Positions 53,570 through 59,311 of a DNA stretch of 64,000 nt are shown here, one piece after another (the first letter of the stretch is position 1; each line of letters opens with the position of its first letter). Below the pieces are notes generated by a model. It made no database searches. It was not told the DNA's origin and worked only from the letters and a program-made list of their open reading frames with translations. The translations under genes and the position numbers were made by a program. This DNA is from Sandaracinus sp. GTDB taxonomy: Bacteria; Myxococcota_A; Polyangia; Polyangiales; Houyiibacteriaceae. Location of the stretch: positions 1 through 64,000 of the forward strand of contig PABA01000089.1 in the NCBI GenBank assembly GCA_002699025.1, in the 5' to 3' direction.

Positions 53570-55084
53570 ATGCACACCGGACTTCGCTTCACTCTCTGTC
53601 TCGCCCTCGTGGGCTGCGCCGCGCAGCCCGCCAAGGACGGCGGCGAGCTGACCACCACCGAGCTCGAGCTGCGCCGCGGTGGCGCCGCCGACTCGGCCAA
53701 CCCCATCGACCAGGGCGCGCTCGCCTGGTGCGACTGGGTCGACGGCGAGCTGAGCCGCCGCGCCCCCTACCACCTGTGGACCTTCTCCACCGAGGCGGGC
53801 TGCGACGACCTCCTCGTCGACCTCGCCAGCCGCGAGGGCTTCGACACCTACGCCCTGCTCTACCGCGTCGTGCCCGCCGCCCACGGCGGCCGGCCCAGCT
53901 ACGAGCTCGTGGCCACGAACGACGACTGCTACGACGGCACGCTCAACAGCTGCATCGAGGGCGAGCTCCCCGCCGGCGAGTACGTCGTCGCCGCGACCAC
54001 CTACCCGTTCATGCGCTGGGGCATCCGCCAGGAGGCCACCTACTCGCTCCGCGTCGTCTGCCGCGACGGGGCCGGCGAGTGCGTCGACCCGGACGAGCCC
54101 ACGGAGGTCGTCTGCGGCGGCTTCCGCGGCGCCAGCTGCGACGAGGGCGAGTACTGCCACTTCGAGCCCTCCGCGACCTGCGGCTGGGCCGACGCCACGG
54201 GCATCTGCCGCCCGACGCCGGAGATCTGCCCGGCGGTCGTGATCCCGGTCTGCGGCTGCGACGGCCGCACCTACAACAACAGCTGCGAGGCGAACGGCGC
54301 CGGCACGAGCGTCCTCCACGAGGGCCCCTGCGAGGACGAGCCCGAGCCCGAGCAGCTCTGCGGCAGCCGCGGCCTCGAGCCCTGCCCCGAGGGCACCTTC
54401 TGTGCCTGGGCCCCGGAGGCCATGTGCGGCGCCACGGACATCCCCGGCACCTGCGAGCCGATGCCCGAGGCCTGCACGCGCGAGTACGCGCCGGTCTGCG
54501 GCTGCGACGGCCGCACCTACTCGAACGCCTGCATGGCGGCCAACCACGGCATCAGCGTCGCCAGCGAGGGCGAGTGCGAGGATCCCTTCGCCGGTGAGGG
54601 CGAGCTCTGCGGCGGCATCGCCGGGGTCCTCTGCGCCGACGGCCTCGTCTGCGACATGAGCGCCAACGACTTCTGCGGCGCCGACCTCGCGGGCACCTGC
54701 GTCGTCGACGAGCCCACGGCCTGCACGCGCGAGTACGTGCCGGTCTGCGGCTGCGACGGCGTCACCTACTCCAACGACTGCGAGCGCCGGGCGGCCCACG
54801 TGGCCCTCGACCACGCGGGCACCTGCGAGGGCGCGGGCGCCGGTGAGGGCGAGCTCTGCGGCGGCATCGCCGGCTTCGTCTGCGCCGACGGCCTCGTCTG
54901 CGACATGAGCGCCAACGAGTTCTGCGGCGCCGACCTCGCGGGCACCTGCGTCGTGGACGAGCCGACCTTCTGCACGGCCCTCTACGACCCGGTCTGCGGC
55001 TGCGACGGCCGCACCTACTCGAACGACTGCTGGCGTCGGGCCGCCTACGTGCCCCTCGACCACGTCGGCGCCTGCGAGCGCTGA
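53570..55084 (+). CDS. Four-module Kazal-type lipoprotein
   Basis: 504-residue lipoprotein with lipobox LALVGC (Cys16), an N-terminal beta-domain (residues about 40-175) and four modules each made of an eight-Cys region plus a Kazal-like segment such as VPVCGCDGVTYSNDC. Modules 3 and 4 are near-identical at DNA level (period 249 bp, starting about 54591 and 54840), a recent duplication. Kazal domains inhibit serine proteases, so this may block host or prey proteases. SD AAGAGGAAAC precedes ATG 53570. Confidence 0.85.
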   Translation: MHTGLRFTLCLALVGCAAQPAKDGGELTTTELELRRGGAADSANPIDQGALAWCDWVDGELSRRAPYHLWTFSTEAGCDDLLVDLASREGFDTYALLYRVVPAAHGGRPSYELVATNDDCYDGTLNSCIEGELPAGEYVVAATTYPFMRWGIRQEATYSLRVVCRDGAGECVDPDEPTEVVCGGFRGASCDEGEYCHFEPSATCGWADATGICRPTPEICPAVVIPVCGCDGRTYNNSCEANGAGTSVLHEGPCEDEPEPEQLCGSRGLEPCPEGTFCAWAPEAMCGATDIPGTCEPMPEACTREYAPVCGCDGRTYSNACMAANHGISVASEGECEDPFAGEGELCGGIAGVLCADGLVCDMSANDFCGADLAGTCVVDEPTACTREYVPVCGCDGVTYSNDCERRAAHVALDHAGTCEGAGAGEGELCGGIAGFVCADGLVCDMSANEFCGADLAGTCVVDEPTFCTALYDPVCGCDGRTYSNDCWRRAAYVPLDHVGACER

Positions 55085-55187: not shown

Positions 55188-56594
55188 ATGGAGCTCTGCG
55201 ACGTCGGTGTGATCGGCCTGGGGGTCATGGGGCGAAACCTCGCCCGGAACTTCGCGCGCCAGGGGCAGAAGGTCGCCGGCTACGACCTCGACCCGGAGGC
55301 GGGGCCGCGGCTGGTCGCCGCCGAGCCGAGCGGCGACTTCGCCATCGCCGCGGACGCGAAGGCCTTCGTCGCCAGCCTCGAGCGCCCGCGCCGCATCCTG
55401 CTCATGGTCAACGCCGGCAAGGCCGTGGACGCCGTGCTCGACGCCCTCGACTCGCTCCTCGAAGAGGACGACGTCGTCATCGACGGCGGCAACTCGCTCT
55501 ACGAGGACACGGATCGGCGGAACGCGCGCGCCGAGGGGCGCCCCTGGCGCTTCGTCGGCATGGGCGTGAGCGGCGGCGCGGAGGGCGCCCTGAAGGGCCC
55601 CTCGATGATGCCCGGCGGGGATCGGGAGGCCTGGGAGCGGCTGAAGCCCGTGCTCGAGGCGAGCGCCGCCGTGGGCGAGGACGGGCCCTGCGTGACCTAC
55701 TGCGGGAGCGGCAGCGCCGGCCACTTCGTGAAGATGACGCACAACGGCATCGAGTACGGCGACATGCAGCTCATCGCCGAGACGACGATGCTGCTCCGAC
55801 GTGGGCTCGGGAAGAGCGGCGCCGAGGTGGCCGAGATCTTCGGCGTCTGGAACGAGGGCGAGCTCGAGAGCTTCCTGATCGAGATCACCGGGCGCATCTT
55901 CGCGCGGCCGGACCCGAAGGACCCGGCGCGGCTCCTGGTCGACCAGATCCTCGACCGGGCCGGCCAGAAGGGCACGGGGCGCTGGACCGTCATGGCCGCC
56001 GTGGAGATGGGCATCCCCGTCCCGACCATCGCGGCCGCCGTCGACGCGCGCGGGCTGAGCTCCTTCAAGGCGCTCCGCGAGCGGGCCGAAGAGGCCATCG
56101 GGCTCGAGCGCCCCGGGCCGGAGAGCCTCGCGGGCGTGAGCGTGGAGGATCTCCGGGACGCGCTCTACGGAGCGAAGATCGCGAGCTACACGCAGGGCTT
56201 CGCCATGCTCCGGGCGGCGAGCGAGGAGCGCGGCTACGGCATCGACCTCGGCGAGATCGCGCGCATCTGGACGGCCGGCTGCATCATCCGCGCGCGCTTC
56301 CTCGGGCGCATCCGGGAGGCCTACGCCGCCGATCCGGAGCTCGCGCTCCTCGCGCTCGCGCCGAGCTTCGCCGAGGATCTCGGGCGTCGCGCGCCCGCCT
56401 GGCGACGGGTCGTGAGCGCGGCCACGGCCGCCGGCCTGCCGATCCCGGGCCTCGCCGCCTCGCTGACCTGGCTCGACACGCTGACCACGGCGAAGGGCAC
56501 GGCGAACGTCATCCAGGCGCAGCGGGATTACTTCGGCAGCCACACCTACCGGCGCGTCGACGACCCGGACACGCCCGTGCACACGGACTGGTGA
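55188..56594 (+). CDS. gnd: 6-phosphogluconate dehydrogenase, decarboxylating
   Basis: 468-residue enzyme. Rossmann N-terminus DVGVIGLGVMGRNLARNFARQG (NADP binding), substrate block GMGVSGGAEGALKGPSMMPGG, and the signature GSGSAGHFVKMTHNGIEYGDMQL with catalytic Lys-x2-His-Asn. C-terminal tail with RRVDDPDTPVHTDW. Converts 6-phosphogluconate to ribulose-5-phosphate, CO2 and NADPH in the pentose phosphate pathway. Length is normal for the family. The stop is 29 bases before a 44-bp repeat that marks an insertion boundary. Confidence 0.97.
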   Translation: MELCDVGVIGLGVMGRNLARNFARQGQKVAGYDLDPEAGPRLVAAEPSGDFAIAADAKAFVASLERPRRILLMVNAGKAVDAVLDALDSLLEEDDVVIDGGNSLYEDTDRRNARAEGRPWRFVGMGVSGGAEGALKGPSMMPGGDREAWERLKPVLEASAAVGEDGPCVTYCGSGSAGHFVKMTHNGIEYGDMQLIAETTMLLRRGLGKSGAEVAEIFGVWNEGELESFLIEITGRIFARPDPKDPARLLVDQILDRAGQKGTGRWTVMAAVEMGIPVPTIAAAVDARGLSSFKALRERAEEAIGLERPGPESLAGVSVEDLRDALYGAKIASYTQGFAMLRAASEERGYGIDLGEIARIWTAGCIIRARFLGRIREAYAADPELALLALAPSFAEDLGRRAPAWRRVVSAATAAGLPIPGLAASLTWLDTLTTAKGTANVIQAQRDYFGSHTYRRVDDPDTPVHTDW

Positions 56595-56623
56595 GCGGCC
56601 CGGCGGGCAGCGGCAGCGGGGCC

Positions 56624-56667
56624 CGCCGCCGGCGACGCCAGCCGCTCCACGCCGCGCCGCTCGGGCC
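56624..56667. repeat. 44-bp direct repeat, left copy
   Basis: This 44-bp sequence (starts CGCCGCCGGCGACGCC, ends CGCTCGGGCC) recurs at 57902-57945 in the same orientation with only 3 differences. It flanks a 1.28-kb segment holding the DUF3396 gene, between the convergent gnd and DUF2252 genes. Confidence 0.88.
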
Positions 56668-56699
56668 GGCCGCCGGGACGATGAGAGGACACAGCAGGC

Positions 56700-57635
56700 T
56701 CATGGATCGAACCGCGTGAGCCAAGCTTCCGTGCGACCGGTGTAGTCCCCGGAGAGGTTCAGCGCCGGCGTGTCGCTCGGGTCGACGAGCAGCGGTCGGA
56801 CGGCAGCGAAGACCGACTCGTACTCCGGCAGGTCGTCCTTGCGGTTCACGTCTCCGAACGCGGGGCGATCACCGGCGCGCAGCACCACCCCCCGAGCAGG
56901 CTTCGTGACCGAGACCTCGGCGTCGACGTTGCTCGCGATCGCCTCGGCCCCGTCGAGACGCATCGTGAAGTCGTCGTCGAGGAACGTCAGCCAACCGATG
57001 CCGCGGAGGTGGTCGTGGCCGGAGTTCGTCGCGTCGTTGACAGCGTCGGGGATGTCCAACCCCCGATGACGCATCGATTTGGCGTATGCGTGCTCGTGCG
57101 CTTCGTCGAGAAAATAACGAGAGCACTCGAGTCCGAATCCGGCCTGTCCGCTCTGGAACGGCACCGTGGACCAGATCTCCTCGGCGAAGCTCTGCATCTG
57201 GGCCGGGTCCTCGATTGCGAAATCGATGGGCAGGGAGATTCGAACGAGCGTTGCATCCTCCACCCGCTCGCCGTCGACTTCTTCGGCCCCCGCCAGGAGG
57301 AACAGGCTGGACGGAGCGTCGTTGTAGGCCTCGGCGTCCTCGAAGGAGATGAACACGTAGTCGTCGAGCGCGGCCCCGGGCTGCAACCATGTCTCGAGCA
57401 TCGCCAGAGCACGCTTGGTGACCTTGCGGTGCTTGCTCATGTTCGCGGTGGCATAGAAGCGCAGCGCGTCTTCTCCCACGATGTCCCTGTAGCGCGTGAA
57501 CGTATCGAGCAGGGGCAGCCCCAGCTCACTGACGGCCTCTTTGGCGAAGAAGCTGAGCGTGAAGACCAAGCGCGTGGCGATACTGTCGTCGTATCGCAGC
57601 TCGAGATCGGCGGGAATCTGCGTCGCGTTTGGCAT
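56700..57635 (-). CDS. DUF3396 / type VI secretion immunity-family protein
   Basis: 311-residue protein of the DUF3396 family, annotated elsewhere as type VI immunity proteins. Family features: IATRLVFTLSFFAKEA near the start and HRGLDIPDAVNDATNSGHDHLRGIGWLTFLDDDF. ATG 57635 (MPNATQ) has AGGA-type SD upstream. Its sequence looks less GC-rich than the neighbours, which suggests recent transfer. It is flanked by 44-bp direct repeats and has only an apparent effector remnant upstream, so it may be an orphan immunity gene protecting against kin or competitor toxins. Confidence 0.75.
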   Translation of the reverse strand: MPNATQIPADLELRYDDSIATRLVFTLSFFAKEAVSELGLPLLDTFTRYRDIVGEDALRFYATANMSKHRKVTKRALAMLETWLQPGAALDDYVFISFEDAEAYNDAPSSLFLLAGAEEVDGERVEDATLVRISLPIDFAIEDPAQMQSFAEEIWSTVPFQSGQAGFGLECSRYFLDEAHEHAYAKSMRHRGLDIPDAVNDATNSGHDHLRGIGWLTFLDDDFTMRLDGAEAIASNVDAEVSVTKPARGVVLRAGDRPAFGDVNRKDDLPEYESVFAAVRPLLVDPSDTPALNLSGDYTGRTEAWLTRFDP

Positions 57636-57870
57636 GGTCGGTGGTTTCCTCGGCGTCCGTCTCTCGACACGTGCAGTTCGAGACCTTCTTGCTCTTCGCA
57701 TCCTCCGGCGTCGCACACTCCACCTTCTCGACACCTTTGATCGTCTCCCCGTCCCGCGATTCCTTCGCGGGCGGATGGGACATTCCGAGCGTCACTCTGC
57801 TCGATTCGGCGGTGGAGTCGAACCTGAGCCACTCGCCTGAAGCGTCGTGGCGTCTCCCGGAACCTCCTCG
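57526..57870 (-). pseudogene. Possible 5'-truncated T6SS effector remnant
   Basis: In the frame overlapping the immunity gene start, a stretch reading GEWLRFDSTAESSRVTLGMS then HPPAKESRDGETIKGVEKV and CATPEDAKSKKVSNCTCRET has normal codon bias and protein-like composition, but begins after a stop near 57885 next to the right-hand repeat. It looks like the C-terminal end of an upstream gene cut off at the repeat. Its stop (57526) would overlap the immunity ORF by 110 bases, which is unusual. Effector identity is inference. Confidence 0.35.
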
Positions 57871-57901
57871 CCAGCGGTTTCAGCGGTTTGGGCACGGGGC
57901 A

Positions 57902-57945
57902 CGCCGCCGGCCACGCCAGCCGCTCCAAGCCACGCCGCTCGGGCC
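57902..57945. repeat. 44-bp direct repeat, right copy
   Basis: Near-identical (41/44) to 56624-56667, in direct orientation, directly abutting the 3' end of the DUF2252 gene (stop at 57947-57949). Marks the other border of the inserted segment. Confidence 0.88.
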
Positions 57946-57946
57946 C

Positions 57947-59134
57947 TCACTCGTCGCGGTAGGCGCGCCAGCTCCGCGCCACCAACGCGGTCATGCGCCG
58001 CACCTCCTCGCGCAGCCAGCCCTCGCGCTCGCGGAGCCACTCGAGCTGGGCGAAGCGGAGCTGCGAGTCGAAGGGCGCCGCGATGAGCCGCACGTGGCCC
58101 CGGCCGAGCTGCACGCCGACGTCCCGCGCCAGCTCCCGCAGCTCGCCCCCGTCGCGCAGCGCGCCGAGCTCGAGCTCCCGGTAGTTGTGCGACCACTCCT
58201 GCACCCAGAAGGGCGGATCGTCGTGCGCCTCCGAGGGCGCCCGCGGCACGATGCCGAGGAAGGGGCTCGGGTTGGCGGTGAGCCGCGCGTGGGCGACGAG
58301 CACGCGGAAGCCCCCGCGCCCCGTGCCGCTCTGGACGCAGGGCACCATCGAGAGCTCGCGCACCTCCTTCGCCTCGAGCACGACGTCGTCGTTCGGCGCC
58401 TCGGTCCAGCCCTCGACGCGCGCCAGGAACTTCGGATCCAGCCGCGACCCGACCCCGCCCCGCAGCCGCCCGTAGCTCCGGAGCTCGAAGAAGTGGGCCG
58501 GCAGCTCCGGGTGCTCGACCTCCATCATGCGCCGGTAGCGGCCGTAGCCCTCCTCGATCTCCGCGCGCACGCGCGCGTCCTCGACCGGCTCCATGAGCTC
58601 CTCCACCTCCCGCAGGAAGGGCTCCCGATCGGCCGTGAAGGTCGCCTGCATGCGCGCCGCCACGGCCGGCGGGGGCTGCTCGGCCTCGGGCTCGCGGAGC
58701 GCATCCCGGTAGCCCTCGAGGAAGGCCGCGAAGGGCCCCGCGCCCTCGTCCCAGCCGCGCGCCCGCCGCACGATCTCGAGGCTCACGCCGAAGCGCACCA
58801 GATCGATCGCCGCCGGCCCCTCCGTCGCGTCGTCGAAGTCGGCGAGGCCGCGCCCCTCGGGCGTGACCGCGTACTGCTCCACGTGGGCGTCGCCGTGGAG
58901 GTTCACGGTGGGCGCCGCCCGCACCGCGCCGCCGAGATCCGCGCAGACCTGGCGGGCGAAGGGGCGGTTGGCGAAACGGAAGAAGTCGTGCTCGCTCCGG
59001 GCCAGGCGCCGGCGCAGATCGGGCGCCGCCTCGAGCTCCTCCCGCTCCGCCTCGCTGGGCCCGAGGAGCGTGGGCGTCGCCGCGCCGCAGGCCACGAGGG
59101 CGAGCAGGGCGCCGTAGGAGACCGAGCGCGGCAC
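57947..59134 (-). CDS. DUF2252-family lipoprotein
   Basis: 395-residue protein starting GTG 59134: short signal SVSYGALLALVAC with lipobox, then the DUF2252 pattern (ARSEHDFFRFANRPFARQVCADL, VNLHGDAHVEQYAVTPEG, GLADFDDATEGPAAIDLVRFGVSL), which resembles a kinase-like fold with HGDxH and DFD motifs. The lipobox makes it unusual: most DUF2252 proteins are cytosolic. An in-frame ATG at 59248 lies in a 12-bp repeat and seems unlikely. Function unknown. Confidence 0.8.
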   Translation of the reverse strand: MPRSVSYGALLALVACGAATPTLLGPSEAEREELEAAPDLRRRLARSEHDFFRFANRPFARQVCADLGGAVRAAPTVNLHGDAHVEQYAVTPEGRGLADFDDATEGPAAIDLVRFGVSLEIVRRARGWDEGAGPFAAFLEGYRDALREPEAEQPPPAVAARMQATFTADREPFLREVEELMEPVEDARVRAEIEEGYGRYRRMMEVEHPELPAHFFELRSYGRLRGGVGSRLDPKFLARVEGWTEAPNDDVVLEAKEVRELSMVPCVQSGTGRGGFRVLVAHARLTANPSPFLGIVPRAPSEAHDDPPFWVQEWSHNYRELELGALRDGGELRELARDVGVQLGRGHVRLIAAPFDSQLRFAQLEWLREREGWLREEVRRMTALVARSWRAYRDE

Positions 59135-59184
59135 GGGCGCAGCATACGCCACCCGGACGAGAACGCGACGCGGCGGTCGACCCG

Positions 59185-59246
59185 CCTCGATACTGGCCTC
59201 GATACTGGCCTCGAGACCGGCCTCGAGACCGGCCTCGGAACGGGCC
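59185..59246. repeat. 12-bp tandem repeat between divergent genes
   Basis: Five copies of CCTCGATACTGG drifting to CCTCGAGACCGG and CCTCGGAACGGG, in the short gap between the DUF2252 start (59134) and the phospholipase D-like lipoprotein start (59312). It could affect their promoters. Confidence 0.85.
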
Positions 59247-59311
59247 ACAGAACCCTCCCGGGCGACGAAGACGGAAGAGAACCCCCCTCACGCGTCGTAT
59301 CCTCTCGTCCG

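Follow-up and report, generated by a model that had tools for sequence, protein, structure and literature searches.

A single gene of the TsiV immunity family (PF11876), for which no partner effector was found, lies in this Sandaracinus genome within a low-GC segment bounded on both sides by a 51-bp direct repeat, in the gap between gnd and a gene for a DUF2252 protein. Positions are those of the window, the whole 64-kb stretch of DNA that was analyzed. We think it probable, with moderate confidence, that an orphan TsiV fragment was inserted once between gnd and the DUF2252 gene and that the boundary was duplicated by non-site-specific recombination; insertion at this site is plausible, not demonstrated.

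A direct repeat coincides with a break in base composition

The left copy of the repeat (56617-56667, plus strand) starts 22 bp past the gnd stop codon, and the right copy (57895-57945, plus strand) ends 1 bp before the stop codon of the DUF2252 gene (57947-57949). The two 51-bp copies have the same orientation, a spacing of 1278 and 4 mismatches (47/51 identical positions); the sequence-only reading had given 41 of 44 matches for 56624-56667 and 57902-57945, which is correct and extends to the longer repeat. Under an independent-base model with 74% GC, the probability of at least 47 matches in 51 is 5e-20, and about 2e-12 such repeat pairs are expected by chance within 6 kb when all pairs are counted. 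The runner-up match to the repeat inside the 64-kb window reaches 33/51.

The enclosed segment (56668-57894, 1227 bp) has a GC content of 64.4%, in comparison to 74% in its surroundings. In 1.2-kb windows drawn from 1.1 Mb of the same genome, the mean GC content was 74.0% (standard deviation 3.3), and 0.6% of the windows were as low as the segment, which bears out the earlier impression of a lower GC content. The repeats thus lie where the composition changes. The segment contains one complete TsiV gene and a short upstream stretch with a coding signal.

Several other origins of the repeat were considered and rejected. A structured RNA or terminator hairpin was rejected, as folding equaled that of shuffled sequences and neither a terminator nor an Rfam match was found; derivation from the 3' flanks of gnd or DUF2252 genes of relatives was rejected, as scores equaled chance. 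A tRNA as target was likewise rejected: there is none at the site, and the nearest one in the window is 3.8 kb distant.

The TsiV gene has no recognizable effector partner

The TsiV gene (56700-57635, minus strand) is complete and encodes 311 amino acids. Its product matches PF11876 over profile positions 3 to 271 of 271 (E 8e-36; 124.2 bits versus a curated cut-off of 25), so that the DUF3396 immunity-family gene proposed earlier carries the full-length domain under its current Pfam name, TsiV. The protein is an ordinary member of a known family. The solved PA0821 structure (PDB 7drg) was also matched, weakly but significantly (E 8e-4), as was phrog_6456. Among the loci compared, its nearest relatives are 27 to 34% identical over most of the protein (best, 33.6%), and all TsiV matches on plasmids and phages are distant (22 to 33% identical). 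A match to the PADLOC phage-defence candidate PDC-M20B (E 1.5e-25) was also observed, indicating that the TsiV immunity family also figures among candidate defence genes.

By its protein, which matches the Pfam family in full length, the gene belongs with TsiV1-4 of Salmonella bongori, members of the same family, but it does not form a paired module. Each TsiV gene of S. bongori adjoins a VRR-NUC effector gene, and that genome encodes a type VI secretion system (T6SS) (PMC9635880); here, no cognate effector gene adjoins TsiV, and no T6SS was detected. Searches of the whole genome assembly (9.24 Mb, 238 contigs, 95.9% complete) returned no domain match to VipB, TssK/VasE, VRR_NUC or Tox-PAAR-like, and PF11876 is present in one copy. 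TsiV is therefore an orphan immunity gene here, and nothing indicates that the cell produces either the toxin or the secretion apparatus. Since the genome is fragmented, a T6SS could sit in a gap between the 238 contigs, and this counts against the proposed insertion of an orphan gene.

TsiV is present in 36 of the 184 genomes of the order, and many of the copies there have a PAAR-like or VgrG-type effector immediately upstream, suggesting that the TsiV gene described here lost its partner or never had one. The two genes most similar to it (L085:6888-7877 and L086:1786-2733) likewise have no recognizable effector directly upstream; orphan TsiV genes may therefore be common in the order. One genome of the order (G169, locus L099) has four TsiV copies, two of which are separated by about 7.7 kb and have similar surroundings, each with a long VgrG-type effector-like open reading frame (ORF) upstream.

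TsiV3 blocks the substrate-binding site, or DNA-binding face, of TseV3 (PMC9635880). Going by this knowledge of the family, we infer that the TsiV product would bind incoming VRR-NUC nuclease effectors from the T6SS of neighbors and block their DNA-binding face. If the gene does protect, a bacterium without a detectable T6SS keeps an acquired gene for immunity against VRR-NUC effectors; otherwise the gene is simply a further orphan.

Upstream of TsiV, a stretch on the minus strand (57680-57840) shows a coding-type codon-position signal, judged by third-position GC, stops and starts, and has no intact start. Third-position GC is ∼0.8 from about 57840 to 57680 in this minus-strand frame, which has stops at 57880-57882 and 57526-57528. 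The stretch would fit an upstream gene that has been cut off, although this is not proven, and might be the remnant tail of a partner gene. Of the decapitated ORF described in the sequence-only reading, the coding signal without an intact start thus stands, but its identity finds no homologue: family and sequence searches with this stretch returned no match. An effector tail was also considered, because the residues NCTC in this stretch resemble a CxC motif that several TsiV-linked effectors have close to their ends, but is not claimed for want of a significant match in the searches.

The repeat occurs at a single locus

The repeat has no further copy in its own genome or in the 184 genomes of the order, and is therefore not a common intergenic repeat, an explanation that had been allowed for at the outset; other matches in the same genome are short and weak (77 to 96% over 25 to 65 bp). 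A survey for direct repeats and low-GC segments covered 1.16 of the 9.24 Mb. It yielded 100 pairs of direct repeats similar in size, many of them clustered in a few loci, and the pair 56617-56667/57895-57945 was the only one among these that encloses a low-GC segment. Flanking repeats were absent from all 20 other TsiV loci examined. The genome encodes six tyrosine recombinases above the Pfam cut-off, none of them on the contig that carries the segment. In agreement with the earlier reading, no integrase is present in or beside the segment, PF00589 matches being found on other contigs only. The repeat also has no dyad beyond that of shuffled sequences (P = 0.99 and 0.93), and thus no inverted core binding sites.

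The uniqueness of the repeat, the lack of a dyad, unusual fold or terminator and the location of the recombinases off the contig argue against a recurrent swap site. A previously undescribed swap site for orphan immunity genes, as the sequence-only reading had proposed, is thus not borne out: the anatomy resembles one, but the repeat was found at one locus only in this genome and the 184 genomes of the order, no relative examined has the gnd/DUF2252 site and hence none has another cargo there, no recombinase accompanies it, and the other low-GC segments surveyed and TsiV loci examined have no such repeats. We regard a dedicated site exchanging orphan immunity genes as having next to no probability. 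Only marginally better is the chance that, in this lineage, a trans-acting recombinase moves individual orphan immunity genes into an intergenic site of 51 bp, which would amount to a portable defence cassette for bacteria without a T6SS.

The same features lend no positive support to an att site. The repeats could nevertheless be attL and attR sites, belonging either to a prophage remnant or to an integrative element that is small or has decayed; its tyrosine recombinase would have acted from elsewhere or been deleted, with the immunity gene left behind as cargo. In favor of this, 51-bp direct repeats (47/51) at a composition break look like such sites. The Aux3 element of Vibrio cholerae, which carries T6SS effector-immunity cargo, lies between genes with att repeats on either side (PMC7721734), and the temperate Burkholderia phage KL3 (L186:524-3986) carries a T6SS-type effector-immunity cassette of PAAR, VRR-NUC, DUF3396 and DUF3396 genes beside an excisionase gene, which makes phage delivery a real possibility; the match to phrog_6456 points the same way. 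With six tyrosine recombinase genes in the genome, an integrase may act in trans at this site. However, the segment's contig carries no integrase, the repeat has no dyad beyond that of shuffled sequences, no tRNA lies at the site, and the site sequence is used only once in the genome. Aux3 resembles the present locus in placing T6SS-related cargo between direct repeats at an intergenic site, but it possesses an integrase, and there are naive strains with just one attB (PMC7721734); neither was seen here. On balance, we consider an att site unlikely.

A single insertion would account for the locus

Insertion with boundary duplication is favored because the repeats and the low-GC segment fall together, the immunity gene has neither a partner nor a secretion system and no integrase is near. 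It is further favored because the repeat is far beyond chance and unique, and because only 1 of the 52 low-GC segments in the 1.16 Mb surveyed, namely, this one, is so flanked. The earlier proposal of an insertion by recombination, or of a duplicated target, is upheld to this extent and parts from the data over the swap site. A foreign fragment would have entered the short space that separates gnd from the DUF2252 gene, carrying TsiV and probably the end of an upstream gene, and the insertion would have left a 51-bp piece of this space on both sides. The route might have been illegitimate recombination assisted by homology, or else a staggered break at which the fragment was captured, followed by fill-in; TsiV would then have been kept as an orphan immunity gene.

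Losses of the effector with retention of the immunity gene have been described for Vibrio, with homology-facilitated illegitimate recombination as the proposed route (PMC5361080). The orphan immunity genes of V. cholerae, ascribed to effector displacement, share with this locus an effector-less immunity gene and a possible effector tail; the Vibrio orphans, however, form arrays inside T6SS clusters (PMC5361080), whereas here there is a single gene and no T6SS was detected. Orphan immunity against T6SS is likewise provided by the rAID systems of Bacteroidales, but these have a tyrosine recombinase, a gene array and intergenic motifs (PMC12247911), none of which is found here; in place of a co-oriented immunity array there is one gene, and no recombinase lies at the locus. 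Short single-locus segments with repeats at their ends are also known from microdiversity loci of other bacteria, where about 10 to 18% of small variable segments are flanked by direct repeats; those segments are defined by strain comparison and typically under 500 bp (PMC2884548), in contrast to the 1227 bp of the present one.

Several observations count against a single insertion. With 4 mismatches in 51 positions between the repeat copies, either the event was not recent or the copies were not identical to begin with. No homologue was found for the upstream remnant, the closest TsiV relative in the surveyed loci has only 34% identity, and no empty site was found among the relatives examined. 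A once larger island, inserted by any route, might also have shrunk by deletion to a 1.2-kb stub, the repeats then being the trace of its first insertion. This would agree with the upstream coding signal, which is truncated and lies near the right repeat, but the deletions must then have ended just inside the repeats, and no further remnants were seen; we hold such a history to be quite improbable.

Flanking genes and their arrangement in relatives

The segment lies between gnd (55188-56594, plus strand), which encodes 6-phosphogluconate dehydrogenase (PF00393 and PF03446), and the DUF2252 gene (57947-59248, minus strand; PF10009, E 8e-23), which has a host-like composition (third-position GC [GC3], 0.956). 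A GC3 percentile among ORFs was discarded because the ORF list includes antisense ORFs. The two genes are convergent, as noted before, with their 3' ends facing the segment.

Searches by gnd, DUF2252 and repeat DNA found no genome among the relatives examined in which gnd lies beside a DUF2252 gene, and a larger genome collection scanned with TsiV and with DUF2252 returned no matches. The outcome that would have spoken against the earlier reading, a shared gene order with both repeats in all relatives, was not seen. The gene after gnd differs in eight relatives, DUF2252 is rare and distant in relatives (37 to 45% identity in the best three), and within the family both DUF2252 and TsiV have a patchy distribution.

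These data also bear on the possibility that nothing was inserted, TsiV being a long-term resident and the repeat having arisen locally when one 3' flank was copied onto the other. The fact that no empty site is known and the 8% divergence of the repeat copies would fit this, but the GC break at the repeats, the variable gene after gnd and the patchy distribution of DUF2252 and TsiV do not. We consider a resident TsiV very unlikely, and an insertion rather than a local change would better explain the locus.

Further upstream of gnd, the window contains a plus-strand gene (53570-55084) encoding a protein with several Kazal protease-inhibitor domains. The last part of this protein is a 249-bp tandem duplication, the two units of which (54558-54806 and 54807-55055) are 85% identical.
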